Counted from the stretch's first letter, positions 33,095 to 40,778 are shown. The stretch: DNA of 56,218 nucleotides from Erysipelothrix sp. (GCA_012735275.1 JAAYHR010000013.1:1-56218); one strand, 5' to 3'. Notes: generated by a model from the letters alone, not told the origin. Program-made: numbers and translations.

Positions 33095-33231
33095 AAGCTC
33101 TCCTTTAACAAAAATGTCCAGTTAAGAATACGCCCAATCTCAACAATAAACAAGAACTTAAGTGATTTATTCAGGTGAATCTCACAAATACAAAAAGTTA
33201 AAATATGCTAAGATTATACAAAGGGGTTAAT

Positions 33232-34431
33232 ATGCTAAAAATTCTATCAATTGTTCTATCACTACTATTTATCTTGCCAAATAATCAACCATTAAATAAT
33301 GAGATTGATGCTTTAAATCTCTTTAGTAAAAACTATATTGTTTATAATTATGAATCAGATCAAGTGCTTGCTAGTAAAGACGCGGATATTAGATTACAAG
33401 CGGCTTCAATTAATAAAGTCTTAACAACAATAACGATCATTGATTCCTTAGCGGAAATACCTTTAGATCAAGAAGTTATTGTTCAAGCCACATCTTTAAA
33501 TAAGGTTCCCATCGAAGCTTCAAAAGCTAGTCTATTTGTGGGACAAAAGTTAAGTGTCAAAGAATTATTATATGCCATCATACTACCTTCAGGATCGGAT
33601 GCAATTGCGGTTCTATCTGATTTCATCTTTGCAGATCAAGCAGCGCTTGTAAAAGCTATGAATGCTAAGGCAACTGAGATTGGTATGGATAATACTAATA
33701 TTGTTAATATCTTTGGACTTGATGATAAAACACAATATACTAGTCTTGAAGATCTTTTAAAGTTAGTTAAGTATGCGCTAAAAAATGAAGTCTTTAGCGA
33801 TGTCTATGGTATGGAAACTTATAACTTTATTAATAACCCAAAGTTACAAATTGAAAACAAATCACTAACGCAAGCCAAGGATCTTAACTTTAATTATATG
33901 TATGGAGCAAAGTCTGGCTATACCGTAGCCGCTCAAAGAGCCTTATCTAGTTATGCAGGTAATGAGGATTTATCTTACATATTGATTACAACTGGTGCTA
34001 AAACAGGTCCAAATCTTACTTCATATGCGGTAAATGATGCCGTTAAAGTTTATAACTACCTCTTTGATAATTATCATATCAAAGACCTGAGTCAAACTGA
34101 GGTAAGTAATCAAGTGAAAGTTAAATGGCGATTACAACCAGTCAAACTAAAACATAATGTTAATCTTGAAGCAGCTATTAACGATAAGATTAACCTAGAA
34201 GAAATAAGTTTTGAAAGTGTTTATCAAGAAGATTTAAAGGCGCCACTTCAAAAAGGTCAAGTAATTGGTAAGGATATATTCACTTATCAAGATGAAGTTA
34301 TATTTGAAAAAGATATCATATTAGATAAATCAATTGGAATTGGCCTAACCTATAAAATCATTCTTCTCTTATTAATTATCAGCATTAGTTGGATTACTTA
34401 TAAGATCCTAAAAAACTTAATTCGTAAATAA
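33232..34431 (+). CDS. dacA: D-alanyl-D-alanine carboxypeptidase, S11 family (DacA/PBP5-like)
   Basis: RLQAASINKVLTTITII (SxxK), PSGSDA (SxN-like), YGAKSGYT (KSG). Confidence 0.9.
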   Translation: MLKILSIVLSLLFILPNNQPLNNEIDALNLFSKNYIVYNYESDQVLASKDADIRLQAASINKVLTTITIIDSLAEIPLDQEVIVQATSLNKVPIEASKASLFVGQKLSVKELLYAIILPSGSDAIAVLSDFIFADQAALVKAMNAKATEIGMDNTNIVNIFGLDDKTQYTSLEDLLKLVKYALKNEVFSDVYGMETYNFINNPKLQIENKSLTQAKDLNFNYMYGAKSGYTVAAQRALSSYAGNEDLSYILITTGAKTGPNLTSYAVNDAVKVYNYLFDNYHIKDLSQTEVSNQVKVKWRLQPVKLKHNVNLEAAINDKINLEEISFESVYQEDLKAPLQKGQVIGKDIFTYQDEVIFEKDIILDKSIGIGLTYKIILLLLIISISWITYKILKNLIRK

Positions 34432-34433
34432 TT

Positions 34434-34465
34434 GAATACTAGCAAATTAGCTAGTATTCTTTTTT
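34434..34465 (+). terminator. Intrinsic terminator
   Basis: GAATACTAGC-aaatta-GCTAGTATTC plus T-run. Confidence 0.88.
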
Positions 34466-34610
34466 ATTAAATTTCAAATTTATTAAATAAGTGTAAATTT
34501 TAGAAAATTTGGTATAATGTATTGGCGTTATTAGGGGATTAAAAAATATAATTAATAATTAAAGATAATAGTCAAGGGGCTATTATGTTTAACTGTGAGA
34601 AGGAGAGAGT

Positions 34611-34841
34611 ATGAAGAATAATGAAATGTTTGAAATATGGGGCGATGTTGTTTCCATTAAATCACTAGTTCTTTCAGTAGTAATTTCTGTTGTAACAACA
34701 ATGGGAATGTATTTTATAGCACCAAGTCATGATAAAACTATCGGGCTGTTTTTTGGATTAACCGGTGCTGTTGTAGGTTTTTTAATATCAGCGTTTCTGA
34801 TTAAACCAAAACGAGTTTTCAAAGACCAAGAGAAAGAATAG
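34611..34841 (+). CDS. Small two-TM membrane protein at head of transporter-mevalonate operon
   Basis: 76 aa after GAAGGAGAGAGT RBS; two predicted TM segments; immediately precedes TctA-like gene. Confidence 0.8.
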   Translation: MKNNEMFEIWGDVVSIKSLVLSVVISVVTTMGMYFIAPSHDKTIGLFFGLTGAVVGFLISAFLIKPKRVFKDQEKE

Positions 34842-34850
34842 GAGCATTTT

Positions 34851-36206
34851 ATGTCATTTGATATTATTATCCAGATGGTTTTAATGGCACTAGCTGCTGT
34901 AATCATCTACACATTTATAGGTTTTATCCCTGGAACTGATGAAACATCTGTATTAATGCCGATAACGTTAGTAATAATCTTATCTGGCTTCGAACCGATT
35001 GTTGTCTTAACATTTTTTATCGCAGCAATTGTGACATTAAACTTAACTAATGCAATACCAACAGCTCTAGTTGGTCTTCCAGGTGGAGTTATGTCAAGTC
35101 CAATGATGGAATCATCATTACTATTAAAAGAAGAAGGCAAATCAGCCTTAGTAATTAAAAAAATGGCAGTTGGCTCACTAATCGGAGTCCTTATCTCAAT
35201 GCCACTAGCTTTAGTCTTAGCAAGTTTACTAGCACCATTTGGTCCAACTTTAACTAAGTTTGCACCGATGCTATTATTCTTAGGAGCGATCTTTTTATCG
35301 CTAATTTCTAAGTATAAGCTATTATCGCTAATCTCAATTGTGCCACTTGCAATCCTATTTATGGCCTTAAGACACCTATATTGGGGACTTGGCGTCGTAC
35401 CAGAAGGAGTTAATATAACTACTTCATTCTTCCTAGGTATTACTATTGGACCACTTTTAATCTCATTATTAGATCTACTTAATAAAGATAAACGTGCCCA
35501 AGTATTAACAACTGAGAAGAAAGTAATTTCAATTCCAAGTGATTCAAGTTTAGCGAAAACATTAAACCCATTTAAGATCGTATCTAAGGATGAAATGAAA
35601 AAAGCTTCGATTGGAGCATTTTTATCAAGTTTCTTATTTGTTTTAAGTCCTGTCGGTTTAACGATTTTATTTGGAGAAACATTAAACAATAAAATTAAAG
35701 ATCCAATTAAAAAAGCAGAATCAACAATAACAACTATGAGTGCAGTTGCGCAAGCGACTTACTTAGCTGGAATTATCATTCCAATTGTCGCGATTGGTAT
35801 TCCATTATCGCCATCATCGATTGGACCTGGGGGAGCACTATATAATGCACCACCAGTTTATACATTAGAAAATAATATTCACCATTTATTATCTGGTTGG
35901 CAATTTCCACTCGCAATCTTTGTCGGTGGCTTAATTGCTGTAGCATTGACTTACTTTATTATTAATCGCTATGCTAGCAAGATGACAAAACTCGTCTTAA
36001 CAAAAATTCCTCATGAAGCAATCTTAGGTTTATTCATTTCATTTATTTTCCTATTAGCTTATATGGATGCAGGATTAATCAATATCTTCGGTGTCGTTCT
36101 AATCGGAATTGTCTGTGGTACCTTAAATAAAAAGGGTGTTAACTACGGAATTCAATTTATGACATTGTATGCAGCACCATTTATCATGACATTATTGGTA
36201 AAATAG
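34851..36206 (+). CDS. Tripartite tricarboxylate transporter TctA-like permease
   Basis: Multi-TM; two PG motifs as in TctA repeats (IGFIPGTDETSVLMPITLV and ALVGLPGGVMSSPMMESSLLLKEEGKSALVIKKMAVGSLIG); second-half GIPLSPSSIGPGGALYNAPP. Confidence 0.8.
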   Translation: MSFDIIIQMVLMALAAVIIYTFIGFIPGTDETSVLMPITLVIILSGFEPIVVLTFFIAAIVTLNLTNAIPTALVGLPGGVMSSPMMESSLLLKEEGKSALVIKKMAVGSLIGVLISMPLALVLASLLAPFGPTLTKFAPMLLFLGAIFLSLISKYKLLSLISIVPLAILFMALRHLYWGLGVVPEGVNITTSFFLGITIGPLLISLLDLLNKDKRAQVLTTEKKVISIPSDSSLAKTLNPFKIVSKDEMKKASIGAFLSSFLFVLSPVGLTILFGETLNNKIKDPIKKAESTITTMSAVAQATYLAGIIIPIVAIGIPLSPSSIGPGGALYNAPPVYTLENNIHHLLSGWQFPLAIFVGGLIAVALTYFIINRYASKMTKLVLTKIPHEAILGLFISFIFLLAYMDAGLINIFGVVLIGIVCGTLNKKGVNYGIQFMTLYAAPFIMTLLVK

Positions 36207-36207
36207 T

Positions 36208-37146
36208 ATGCGAACAGTCGAAGGAAAATCATTTGGAAAAATCATATTGCTAGGTGAACACTCAGTTGTTTATGGTGAACCAGCAATCGCGATTCCTTTT
36301 CCAAGTGCACTTATAACAACTAAAATTAGTGAAAGTGTCGGTAGCTGCCAGTTAAAATGTTTCAATTACACTGGTGATTTAATGCTGGCTCCCGAGTCAC
36401 TAATTGGTTTAGTTGAATTAATAAAAGAAATAATGAAAAGATTAAAACAAGAATTAAATAATTTTGATATTGAAATTGAATCAACAATCCCAGCTGAAAG
36501 AGGTATGGGGTCAAGTGCCGCTGTCGCAGCCGCTACAGCTCGTGCGCTTTATGCCTACTTTGATCAAGCTTTAAGTGATGAAGAATTATTAGACTTAGTA
36601 TCAATCTCAGAAAAAATTGTCCACGGTAATCCAAGTGGACTTGATGCATCAATTGTTGTATTAGAAAAACCTTTATATTATATTAAAGGTCAAGCCTTTG
36701 AACAATTTGATTTTAACCTTGATGCTTATCTACTAGTAGCTGATACTGGTGAGAAAGGCAACACTAAATTCGCAGTTTCGTCAGTAAAAGACTTTGTTGA
36801 TCGCGATGAAAAAGGTAAAATGTATGTTAGTGACTTAGGACAATTAGTAATCGATGCTAGAAAAGTATTTAATGACCATGATGAAATCGGCTTAGGAAAT
36901 ATTATGAATAAGGTCCAAGCTAATTTAAAGGCACTTGGAGTTTCAAATGAAACCTTAGATAAGTTAGTTAGTGTCGCACTAGCAAATGGTGCCTTAGGCG
37001 CTAAATTAACTGGTGGTGGCCTTGGTGGTTGTATGATAGCTTTAATGAAAAGCGAAGCAGATGCGAAAAAGGTATCACAAGCATTATTGGCCAATGGTGC
37101 CAAAAACACATGGATTACAGAAATGAAGTCAGAAGGAGTGAAGTAA
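36208..37146 (+). CDS. mvk: Mevalonate kinase
   Basis: GKIILLGEHSVVYGEPAIAIPF, ERGMGSSAAVAAATARAL, KLTGGGLGGCMIAL GHMP kinase motifs. Confidence 0.94.
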   Translation: MRTVEGKSFGKIILLGEHSVVYGEPAIAIPFPSALITTKISESVGSCQLKCFNYTGDLMLAPESLIGLVELIKEIMKRLKQELNNFDIEIESTIPAERGMGSSAAVAAATARALYAYFDQALSDEELLDLVSISEKIVHGNPSGLDASIVVLEKPLYYIKGQAFEQFDFNLDAYLLVADTGEKGNTKFAVSSVKDFVDRDEKGKMYVSDLGQLVIDARKVFNDHDEIGLGNIMNKVQANLKALGVSNETLDKLVSVALANGALGAKLTGGGLGGCMIALMKSEADAKKVSQALLANGAKNTWITEMKSEGVK

Positions 37147-38109
37147 TTGAAAGCAAAAGTAAGAGCTCATGCAAATATAGCCCTAATCAAATATTGGGGT
37201 AAGGAAGATGAAGTTTTAGCAATTCCAAATAACTCATCATTATCCTTAACACTAGATAAGTTTTATACGGAAACAGAAGTAGAGTTTTCTAGCGAATTTA
37301 CTAGCGATGAGTTTTATTTAAATGGCGTTAAAGATGATGCTACTTTAAGTAAGGTTTCAAACTTTACCGATTTATTCAGAAAATTAAAAGGTATTAATGA
37401 TCGTGTTATAGTCAGAAGTGTTAACTATGTGCCAACGGCAGCGGGCCTTGCTTCATCAGCAAGTGCCTTTGCTGCGCTTGGTAAAGCAATCAATGTGTCC
37501 CTTGATCTAAATTTAAGTGACGAAGAACTATCTACATATGTTCGTCAAGGATCAGGTTCCGCAACTAGAAGTCTTTATGGTGGTTTAGTCCAGTGGACAA
37601 AAGGTAATAGTCATGAAAGTTCAAAAGCAGTCAGAATTGATCCAGCTAACTTTGATATTGGCATGGTTGTAGTTATTGTCAATTCTAAAGAAAAGAAAAT
37701 ATCTTCAAGAGAAGGTATGAAGCAAACAGTATTGACATCACCATTTTATCCAGCATGGCCAAGTGAAGCTGAAAAAGACCTTGATTTAATGAAAGTCGCA
37801 ATTAAAAATCAAGACTTAGAAGCCATTGGTAAGATCGCGGAAAATAATGCCTTAAAAATGCATGCAACCATGATGGCGGCAAATCCGGCTATAATCTACA
37901 TGGAAGAAAAATCAATGCAGGCAATTAGACTAGTTCATGAGTTAAGAGCTGAAGGTATTACAGCTTATTTCACTATGGATGCTGGTCCAAATGTTAAAAT
38001 AATTTGTCAGCTGAGCCAAGCTGAAGTAATAAAAGCAAAATTATTAAAAGAATTTAATGAAGAAGAAATAATTGTAACAGGTGTTGGACCTGATGCGAGT
38101 ATTATTTAA
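37147..38109 (+). CDS. mvaD: Diphosphomevalonate decarboxylase
   Basis: TTG start abutting mvk stop; ANIALIKYWGKEDEVLAIPNNSSLSLTL, PTAAGLASSASAFAAL, YFTMDAGPNVKII. Confidence 0.95.
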   Translation: MKAKVRAHANIALIKYWGKEDEVLAIPNNSSLSLTLDKFYTETEVEFSSEFTSDEFYLNGVKDDATLSKVSNFTDLFRKLKGINDRVIVRSVNYVPTAAGLASSASAFAALGKAINVSLDLNLSDEELSTYVRQGSGSATRSLYGGLVQWTKGNSHESSKAVRIDPANFDIGMVVVIVNSKEKKISSREGMKQTVLTSPFYPAWPSEAEKDLDLMKVAIKNQDLEAIGKIAENNALKMHATMMAANPAIIYMEEKSMQAIRLVHELRAEGITAYFTMDAGPNVKIICQLSQAEVIKAKLLKEFNEEEIIVTGVGPDASII

Positions 38110-38122
38110 GGAGTGATATAAA

Positions 38123-39196
38123 ATGATAAGTTCTTGCTCACCCGGGAAACTATTTATAGCTGGAGAATATGCAGTCGTCGAAAAAGGACATTCTTCAATT
38201 TTAATTGCAGTAGATCAATTTATAGAAGTAACTTTAAAAGAAACAGAACATCGTGGTTCAATCCAATCTTATGACAATGCCCCAATTCCGTTTGTTCGTG
38301 AAGATCAAAGAATTGTATTAGACTATCGAGATAATAATCTGTCTTATGTTATATCGGCAATTAATGTCGTAGAAACACTAGCGCTATCCCTCAATAAGGA
38401 ACTACTATTTTACAATTTAGTAATTAATAGTGAGTTGGAAAATGATGCTGGGAAAAAATATGGCTTAGGCTCAAGTGCCGCAGTTACCGTTTCAACTATC
38501 AAAGTATTATGTAAGTTATATCAAATTGAAGTTAGTAAAGATATGTTATTTAAACTTGCAGCAATCGTTCACTTAAGAATTAACTCAAATGGTTCTGGGG
38601 GCGACATTGCCGCATCAGTCTATGGTGGTTGGATCTCATACCGTACTTATGATAAAGCATGGTTAGAAGAACAATCAAAGACTTTAAGTGTCAGTGAATT
38701 AATTCATATGCGTTGGCCTTATTTAGATATTCAGCATTTAAAAGCGCCAGACAATCTTAAGTTAATGATTGGCTGGACAGAAAGTCCCGCATCGACAACA
38801 TTTTTAGTTGATGATATGAACAAGCATCGAAAAGACAATGCTGAATACTATAATGAATTCTTAATAGCTAGTAATGAATGTGTTGATCGTATGATCGATG
38901 CTTTTAAAGCTAATGATTTAAAAACTATTCAAACAGAAATTTTAAACAACCGTAAACTTTTAGTCGATATGAGTGATCGCTTAGGTATTACTATTGAAAC
39001 ACCAAGACTAAAGAAACTCTGTGATCTAGCAATTCAGTATCAAGGAGCTGCGAAATCATCAGGCGCCGGTGGTGGTGACTGTGGTATTGCGATCTTTGAT
39101 CAAGCAGATAATACAGATGAGTTAGTTAAAGAGTGGGCAAAAGATCAAATTACCCATTTAAATATTGAAGTCTATCAAGGAGAAAGTCATGATTGA
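38123..39196 (+). CDS. Phosphomevalonate kinase
   Basis: SPGKLFIAGEYAVVEKGHSSILIAVDQFIEV, GLGSSAAVTVSTIKVL, KSSGAGGGDCGIAI. Confidence 0.93.
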   Translation: MISSCSPGKLFIAGEYAVVEKGHSSILIAVDQFIEVTLKETEHRGSIQSYDNAPIPFVREDQRIVLDYRDNNLSYVISAINVVETLALSLNKELLFYNLVINSELENDAGKKYGLGSSAAVTVSTIKVLCKLYQIEVSKDMLFKLAAIVHLRINSNGSGGDIAASVYGGWISYRTYDKAWLEEQSKTLSVSELIHMRWPYLDIQHLKAPDNLKLMIGWTESPASTTFLVDDMNKHRKDNAEYYNEFLIASNECVDRMIDAFKANDLKTIQTEILNNRKLLVDMSDRLGITIETPRLKKLCDLAIQYQGAAKSSGAGGGDCGIAIFDQADNTDELVKEWAKDQITHLNIEVYQGESHD

Positions 39197-40181
39197 GAAT
39201 AGAAAAGATGAACATGTACGTTTAGCTTTGGCCCAAGTTGATTTAGCGCCAGCTTCTGACTTTGATTTAGTTAGTCTTGAACATGATTCAATTCCTAATT
39301 TAAAAGTTGATGATATTGATCTTACAACCAGTATTGCTGGGATTGATTTAGTCTCACCACTCTTCATAAATGCTATGACAGGTGGTAGTGATAAAACTAA
39401 AGGCATCAATGAGAAGTTAGCTGAAGTTGCTCGCTTAGTAAATATCCCAATTGCATCAGGCTCACTTAGTTCAGCACTAAAAAATCCGGATAATGAAGCA
39501 TCATTTTCAATCTTACGTAAGACCAATCCAGACGGAATTATCTTCGCTAATGTTGGGGCCGAGTATGATTTAAGTGCAGCTCAAAAAGCAGTTGATATCT
39601 TATCGGCAAATGCACTTCAAATTCATGTTAATGTTATTCAAGAAGTTGTAATGCCTGAAGGTGATCGTGACTTTACTAGTTGGAATACTAATATTGCTGA
39701 AATAGCAAAGAGTTTATCAGTACCATTGATAGTTAAAGAAGTGGGCTTTGGAATGAGTAGTGCCTCAATTAAAAAATTAATTAACTTAGGTGTGAAAACA
39801 ATTGACCTTAGTGGTTATGGTGGAACAAACTTCGCTAAAATTGAGAATGCCCGCCGTGAAGACTTCGATATGAGTTACTTAGAAAATATGGGAATATCCA
39901 CAGTACAATCATTAATCAATGCTAAAGACTATTTAAGTGAAGTTGAAATCATTGCCTCTGGAGGTATAAGAAATCCCTTAGATGTAATTAAATCACTAGC
40001 TATGGGTGCATCAGCTGTCGGTATGTCATCATTTGTTTTAAGTAATGTTGAAAAGCATGGAGTCAATAAGACAGTTGAAATACTTAATGCTTGGAACTAT
40101 CAACTAAAGTTAATTATGACTTTACTTGGAGTTAAGAATATTAAAGAATTACAAAAAATTAAAGTAAATATTAAATTATAG
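39189..40181 (+). CDS. fni: Isopentenyl-diphosphate delta-isomerase, type II (FMN)
   Basis: MIENRKDEHVRLALAQ, FINAMTGGSDKTKGINEKLAEVA, DLSGYGGTNFAKIE; ATG 39189 overlaps PMK stop. Confidence 0.95.
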   Translation: MIENRKDEHVRLALAQVDLAPASDFDLVSLEHDSIPNLKVDDIDLTTSIAGIDLVSPLFINAMTGGSDKTKGINEKLAEVARLVNIPIASGSLSSALKNPDNEASFSILRKTNPDGIIFANVGAEYDLSAAQKAVDILSANALQIHVNVIQEVVMPEGDRDFTSWNTNIAEIAKSLSVPLIVKEVGFGMSSASIKKLINLGVKTIDLSGYGGTNFAKIENARREDFDMSYLENMGISTVQSLINAKDYLSEVEIIASGGIRNPLDVIKSLAMGASAVGMSSFVLSNVEKHGVNKTVEILNAWNYQLKLIMTLLGVKNIKELQKIKVNIKL

Positions 40182-40185
40182 TATT

Positions 40186-40222
40186 AAAAAACTTCTATTT
40201 TAAAATAAATAGAAGTTTTTTC
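40186..40222. terminator. Intrinsic terminator (bidirectional)
   Basis: AAAAACTTCTATT...AATAGAAGTTTTTT. Confidence 0.85.
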
Positions 40223-40235
40223 TTTGTTTAATATT

Positions 40236-40778
40236 TTATAGAAAATCGTACATAGCTTTATCTTTTTCAAGCTTTGCTTCAATTTTATAAGTAAGTTCAT
40301 TTGCTAAGTTCTCAATACGCATAGCAATTTCGTCATTAAGTTTTGTATCGGCTAAATCACTAGCTTCAATAAAGACATACTTAGTAATAACATCCATCTT
40401 TAAATAATCAAGGACTGGAATTAAGTGTTGTTGGGCAACTAAGTAGTGACGTGGTGATCCCGCAGTAATAATTAATCCGATTGGTTTTGATTGAAGGGCG
40501 TTAATCGGAATTAAATCTAAGATGTTTTTTAGGACACCTGGAATTGAGGCTTGATAAATTGGTAGGGCAATAACGATACCGTCTGCCTCAATTAATTTTT
40601 CAACGATTAACTTATTATCATTATCATATTCACGATAGTCACGTCCATCGGCAAAACTCATTGTCATATCTTTTAAATTAAGTAATTCAAGGTCGACTGT
40701 ATCAGCAAACTTTAAATTATTTAGGGCCAGGCCAGTTTTACTACCAGCTACTGATCCATTAATTGCGATAACTTTCAT
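40236..40778 (-). CDS. NADPH-dependent FMN reductase
   Basis: AINGSVAGSKTGLALNNL, ADGIVIALPIYQASIPGVLKNILDLI. Confidence 0.88.
   Translation of the reverse strand: MKVIAINGSVAGSKTGLALNNLKFADTVDLELLNLKDMTMSFADGRDYREYDNDNKLIVEKLIEADGIVIALPIYQASIPGVLKNILDLIPINALQSKPIGLIITAGSPRHYLVAQQHLIPVLDYLKMDVITKYVFIEASDLADTKLNDEIAMRIENLANELTYKIEAKLEKDKAMYDFL

Follow-up and report, generated by a model that had tools for sequence, protein, structure and literature searches.

The window, by which we mean the whole 56,218-nucleotide stretch of Erysipelothrix sp. DNA analysed, carries at 34611-40181 one co-directional set of genes for a small membrane protein, a TctA-family permease, mevalonate kinase (MK), diphosphomevalonate decarboxylase (MDD), phosphomevalonate kinase (PMK) and type II isopentenyl-diphosphate isomerase (IDI2) (Table 1). 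The enzymes MK, PMK, MDD and IDI are all present in the window, and the NCBIfam (TIGR) matches of all four lie above curated cut-offs. The first-pass annotation had described six co-directional, nearly gap-free genes here; the open reading frames are confirmed at the positions it gave, and the family assignments are borne out by profile matches. Successive intergenic gaps measure 9, 1, 0 and 13 nt, followed by an 8-nt overlap of PMK and IDI2 if the latter starts at its likely ATG, which is better placed than the upstream TTG and has AGGAGAAAG directly before it. The overlap of PMK and fni reported earlier holds even with this later start. A strong terminator-like hairpin precedes the first gene and just weak coding-strand hairpins occur within the operon, in agreement with the earlier statement that no terminator separates the genes. 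An Rfam search of 34300-40300 returned no RNA element, and a promoter scan gave hits at chance level.

Table 1. Features of the operon and its upstream border (window coordinates)
Feature	Coordinates	Strand	Evidence
D-Ala-D-Ala carboxypeptidase gene, precedes operon	33205-34431		
Terminator-like hairpin with T-run, closes the preceding carboxypeptidase gene; upstream operon border	34434-34459	+	hairpin search, sequence
76-aa two-helix membrane protein, constant permease partner	34611-34841	+	ORF; E-x-W-x-D ... KPKR signature
TctA-superfamily permease, 451 aa, predicted mevalonate importer	34851-36206	+	PF01970 3.5e-22
Mevalonate kinase, 312 aa	36208-37146	+	TIGR00549 8.1e-81
Diphosphomevalonate decarboxylase, 320 aa, TTG start	37147-38109	+	TIGR01240 7.1e-107
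Phosphomevalonate kinase, 357 aa	38123-39196	+	TIGR01220 3.8e-130
Type II IDI, likely ATG start 39189; ORF open from TTG 39165	39189-40181	+	TIGR02151 1.9e-117

The permease scores 79.1 bits against PF01970 (TctA; gathering score 28.9), and hhalign pairs it with canonical TctA over 382 columns at 95.6% probability and 21% identity; the profile of its own family retrieves none of eight canonical TctA ORFs at E<=10. The family carries a PGTDET signature, with D30 and E31 present in 77 of 77 sequences, and across 78 permeases PGTDET, K104, S192, S266, Y304, N342, H388, E389 and Y440 are fully or almost fully conserved, which makes these residues candidates for substrate and ion binding. An AlphaFold model of the permease is all-helical and confident (pLDDT 88.5, pTM 0.87). 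Neither a profile search nor a fold search with the model recovered a relative among solved structures, and the substrate site therefore could not be placed by homology. The partner, 76 aa in the window, has two hydrophobic stretches and the E-x-W-x-D...KPKR signature common to its family, whose members span about 72-120 aa in the main branch and 150-160 aa in a distant branch. It has no Pfam or NCBIfam match at cut-off and no match to TctB (PF07331).

The genomic neighbourhood of the permease was surveyed by comparing a six-sequence profile with 85,488 species genomes, taking the best 80 homologues ranked by permease similarity alone and typing their neighbours with the window's own enzymes. 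MK and/or MDD adjoins the permease on the same strand at 70 of these 80 loci, and where MK is linked the median distance from permease to MK is 11 nt. The full order partner-permease-MK-MDD-PMK-IDI2 recurs at 43 of the best 80 loci, another 13 differ by the lack of IDI2 only, and at four further loci a single MDD-matching ORF replaces MK and MDD. One such arrangement is seen in an Erysipelotrichaceae MAG (L009/L102; L009:8352-10214), where a 621-aa MK-MDD fusion matches TIGR00549 over residues 8-277 and TIGR01240 over 307-597; at L096, L099 and L103 one MDD-matching ORF likewise substitutes for MK plus MDD. Two Clostridium loci are ordered MK-MDD-partner-permease-PMK. HMG-CoA reductase (HMGR) takes the place of MK/MDD beside the permease at two of the best 80 loci, and neither is found at the remaining eight, three of which lie on contigs that end in or just past the permease. 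At five loci, in Oceanobacillus, Virgibacillus and Cerasibacillus, the permease pair has no mevalonate-pathway gene nearby. The pair is followed there (L113, L122, L126, L130, L139) by a conserved ORF of ~320 aa that by eye resembles an MBL-fold hydrolase.

Carriers of the family include Erysipelotrichaceae, Tissierella, Helcococcus, Carnobacteriaceae, Enterococcus, Izimaplasma and other Mollicutes-type MAGs, Amphibacillus and other Bacillaceae, Corynebacterium, Pseudoclavibacter and Tessaracoccus, and linkage to MK/MDD spans Bacillota, Mollicutes-type bacteria and Actinomycetota. As a control, eight canonical TctABC loci from some of the same genomes show no recognisable mevalonate-pathway genes nearby. 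Because it recurs at about 70 separate genomic loci, the linkage between permease and mevalonate genes is not due to chance; the survey proposed in the first-pass annotation finds it conserved across phyla among the best 80 homologues, and so not peculiar to one genome. The partner gene lies directly upstream of the permease at 79 of the 80 loci, the exception beginning at a contig end, and the 76-aa protein, as the permease's constant companion, belongs to the system. TctC (PF03401) is absent from every carrier of the window's own family and from 39 of 45 carrier genomes. Since the same two-helix partner recurs at 79 of 80 loci and TctC is missing from most carriers, the pair, as judged from sequence, is not a tripartite tricarboxylate transporter but a two-subunit offshoot of the TctA superfamily that lacks a binding protein.

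More distant homologues (33-38% identity) occupy a second setting, adjoining a degradative HMGR and usually HMG-CoA lyase as well. Six homologues on replicons, at 33% identity (two in Roseomonas, one each in Lichenicola and Rhizobium, two in Burkholderia), all lie beside degradative HMGR and a partner gene, and the lyase is part of the cluster in the four from Roseomonas, Lichenicola and Rhizobium. There the annotations read degradative HMGR, a ~155-aa hypothetical protein, 'tripartite tricarboxylate transporter permease' and HMG-CoA lyase; the two Burkholderia replicons have HMGR, partner and permease in matching order. At all six Proteobacterial loci (L153-L156, L158, L159) a divergent 'PLP-dependent aminotransferase family' gene adjoins the degradative HMGR; by context it would be MocR-like and is a candidate mevalonate-responsive regulator. 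In a family relative (G011, L010:9087-13751), genes for CoA-transferase III, AtuA, an AtuA ferredoxin-like protein, degradative HMGR (TIGR00532, 497 bits), partner and permease stand in a row; no HMG-CoA lyase was seen in this cluster, which possibly represents another route of mevalonate degradation. Two Bacillus-type loci combine degradative HMGR, the partner and the permease with a sigma-54-type regulator (Pfam-typed in L136); the permease tree places these two HMGR-linked sequences among the MK-linked Bacillaceae. By established enzymology, MK and degradative HMGR have, to our knowledge, no metabolite in common but mevalonate. The two contexts share only mevalonate and therefore point to it as the substrate: import of HMG or citrate would not account for MK, and carriage of phosphomevalonate or IPP would not account for HMGR and the lyase.

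To see how carriers obtain mevalonate, 50 carrier genomes were searched for HMGR, HMG-CoA synthase (HMGS) and DXP reductoisomerase (DXR). DXR is present without HMGR or HMGS in 25, and none of the three is intact in seven; the lower mevalonate pathway is thus kept without detectable synthesis of its substrate in 32 of 50 carriers, as seen in draft genomes. This is the group, lacking mvaS and mvaA, on which the earlier annotation had advised that a survey concentrate. Two carriers have HMGR, adjoining the permease, without HMGS; 13 have HMGR and HMGS without DXR, a full mevalonate pathway; and three have all three enzymes. Since 25 of the 32 carriers without HMGR and HMGS possess DXR, the lower pathway in them is an addition to the MEP pathway, and with a MEP route also present in some carriers the system is often an optional salvage route and not a mark of auxotrophy. 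Nor is the permease confined to auxotrophs, given the 13 full-pathway carriers and the five unlinked loci. We considered and rejected the reading that the seven carriers lacking DXR and intact HMGR/HMGS are all mevalonate auxotrophs: IspH is found in five of them, so a missing DXR is no proof of a missing MEP pathway, and a DXR-II type enzyme could stand in for DXR. Across the 50 carriers and the window's genus, DXR, IspH and intact HMGR/HMGS are all absent only in Helcococcus (two species) and in two genomes of the genus, the window's own (G000) and G002. Full dependence on external mevalonate is a firm case for Helcococcus and less sure for G000 and G002. Helcococcus kunzii (L143:3680-6352) offers a natural experiment: both upper mevalonate genes are broken, HMGS being split over two overlapping ORFs and HMGR surviving as a C-terminal piece of 177 aa, yet the permease, partner and lower-pathway genes remain intact.

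The window's genome is a 1.07-Mb draft of 63 contigs, of which the window is contig C53, and is 84.6% complete; its genus-mates G001 and G002 are 66% and 94% complete, G002 being the nearest mate that has the locus. The first-pass annotation had reported neither TctC nor HMGS/HMGR in the window, and this is upheld; the whole-genome search for mvaS and mvaA that it recommended found none in the remainder of the 84.6% complete draft, and HMGR and HMGS were likewise not found in the drafts of G001 and G002, nor TctC anywhere in that of G000. DXR and IspH were not found in G000 (84.6% complete) or G002 (94% complete), and both genomes contain undecaprenyl-diphosphate synthase. Unlike these two, G001 has IspH together with IspG (L157:58-4438), and the genus may be losing the MEP pathway. 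Among 100 relatives from the same family, a true MK is present in nine genomes. Four of these (G000, G002, G009, G010) have no HMGR/HMGS and are exactly those with the permease family; the other five have HMGR/HMGS, and all of them are without it (Fisher p=0.008). In G010 the permease is unlinked and the lower-pathway operon stands separately. Elsewhere in the same order, the near-complete genomes G013, G018, G019, G028, G058 and G060 yielded no classical DXR and no HMGR, and six others (G011, G100, G101, G103, G107 and G125) are DXR-negative with IspH present; a DXR-II type enzyme or a different source of isoprenoids may account for this.

We consider it highly probable, from gene content and context, that the operon is a mevalonate uptake-and-use system and the permease pair its predicted mevalonate importer. 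What we infer is mevalonate as substrate, an inward direction, a single complex of the two membrane proteins, and ion coupling. The permease and its 76-aa partner would form a two-subunit secondary transporter that works without TctC and brings mevalonate from the surroundings into the cell, with ion coupling perhaps through the invariant D30/E31. MK, PMK and MDD would then convert the imported mevalonate to IPP, and IDI2 would make DMAPP for undecaprenyl phosphate and other isoprenoids. The first-pass annotation had already suggested mevalonate import, and the suggestion gains support from the linkage survey, from the 32 of 50 carriers without HMGR/HMGS and from the degradative-HMGR context. 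Several observations count against import: it is not obviously needed in the 13 of 50 carriers that have a full mevalonate pathway and no DXR, five loci are unlinked, as is the permease of G010, G001 has IspG and IspH, and gene absences were scored on incomplete drafts. In addition, mevalonate has a single carboxylate group, and the substrates of canonical TctA proteins are di- and tricarboxylates.

The same 13 carriers, with complete HMGS and HMGR and no DXR, could be taken to favour an exporter or overflow valve that releases excess cell-made mevalonate, particularly as secondary carriers can work in both directions. We regard this as quite improbable, because the 32 carriers and the window's genus, without detectable intact HMGR/HMGS, would have nothing to export, and because the Proteobacterial homologues sit in degradative operons, where import is required. 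The Pfam family name and the generic annotation 'tripartite tricarboxylate transporter permease' would instead suit an importer of citrate, tartrate or a similar organic acid that belongs to the operon by accident or for regulation only. Such a coincidence would have to extend to MK/MDD in Bacillota, Mollicutes-type bacteria and Actinomycetota and to degradative HMGR and HMG-CoA lyase in Proteobacteria. The absence of TctC from 39 of 45 carriers, the distance from canonical TctA (none of eight loci retrieved at E<=10; 21% identity in the profile alignment) and the lack of recognisable mevalonate-pathway genes at all eight canonical TctABC loci weigh against it further, and we judge it highly improbable. 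Least likely of the three is a carrier of a downstream intermediate or lipid, such as phosphomevalonate, IPP or undecaprenyl phosphate undergoing recycling. The operon does supply isoprenoids for cell-wall lipid carriers, and undecaprenyl-diphosphate synthase is present; however, nearly every operon retains MK, an enzyme with no purpose if the compound taken up were already phosphorylated, and the homologues in HMGR/HMG-CoA lyase operons have no connection to IPP or lipid carriers.

Import of mevalonate is accordingly the reading we carry forward, and the permease pair is very probably the long-missing bacterial mevalonate importer that we predict it to be. Within the TctA superfamily the family would be a new functional variant, and we know of no better candidate for a natural bacterial mevalonate importer. 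With moderate confidence, we favour the joint proposition that this is the first natural mevalonate transporter family, a two-subunit, binding-protein-free TctA branch serving both salvage and degradation, and that some carriers, the window's organism and Helcococcus among them, rely entirely on mevalonate that other organisms release. The earlier annotation knew of no described system of this composition, and our searches of the open-access literature, covering TctA and TTT proteins with mevalonate as well as mevalonate salvage, cross-feeding, catabolism and import, found none; nor did they find a paper identifying a natural bacterial mevalonate transporter, or a gene named for mevalonate uptake. 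A two-gene candidate makes the question of mevalonate uptake directly testable. If the assignment is true, it predicts mevalonate cross-feeding between microbes, with mevalonate shared much like a vitamin in anaerobic and host-associated communities. Many genes now labelled automatically as 'tripartite tricarboxylate transporter permease' would receive a corrected name, metabolic engineering would gain a natural importer of mevalonate, and the 'incomplete mevalonate pathway' described for MEP-using Corynebacteria (PMC13244258) would be explained as a salvage route.

The proposed system can be compared with several that are known. Like the TTT family (TctA/TctB/TctC), it joins a small membrane protein to a permease whose sequence places it in the TctA superfamily, but it has no TctC, its partner is a two-helix protein of ~80 aa whereas TctB has four helices, its permease carries PGTDET where the N-terminal motif of canonical members is PG[LI]SAT or PGLGP, and the permease is 450 aa long rather than ~500 aa. 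Orphan TctA proteins in archaea and a few bacteria, which a review of the TTT family suggested might function without a binding protein (PMC5812351), fit a binding-protein-free permease of this kind. A further comparison is with the mevalonate catabolism typified by Pseudomonas mevalonii, with mvaA (degradative HMGR) and mvaB (HMG-CoA lyase): Roseomonas, Lichenicola and Rhizobium carry the permease family within operons of this type, and in Burkholderia and Bacillus-type bacteria it adjoins degradative HMGR; in the window, by contrast, the imported mevalonate would be phosphorylated for isoprenoids and not oxidised. Bacteria that need or consume mevalonate have been known for decades, and mevalonate was recognised as a growth factor in 1956 for mevalonate-requiring lactobacilli, which resemble the proposed case in growing on external mevalonate. 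Mammalian MCT1 F360C and evolved yeast Jen1 also bring mevalonate across a membrane (PMC12405511), as mutant or evolved monocarboxylate carriers of a separate family; as late as 2025, a mutant mammalian carrier was described as the sole mevalonate importer known (PMC12405511).
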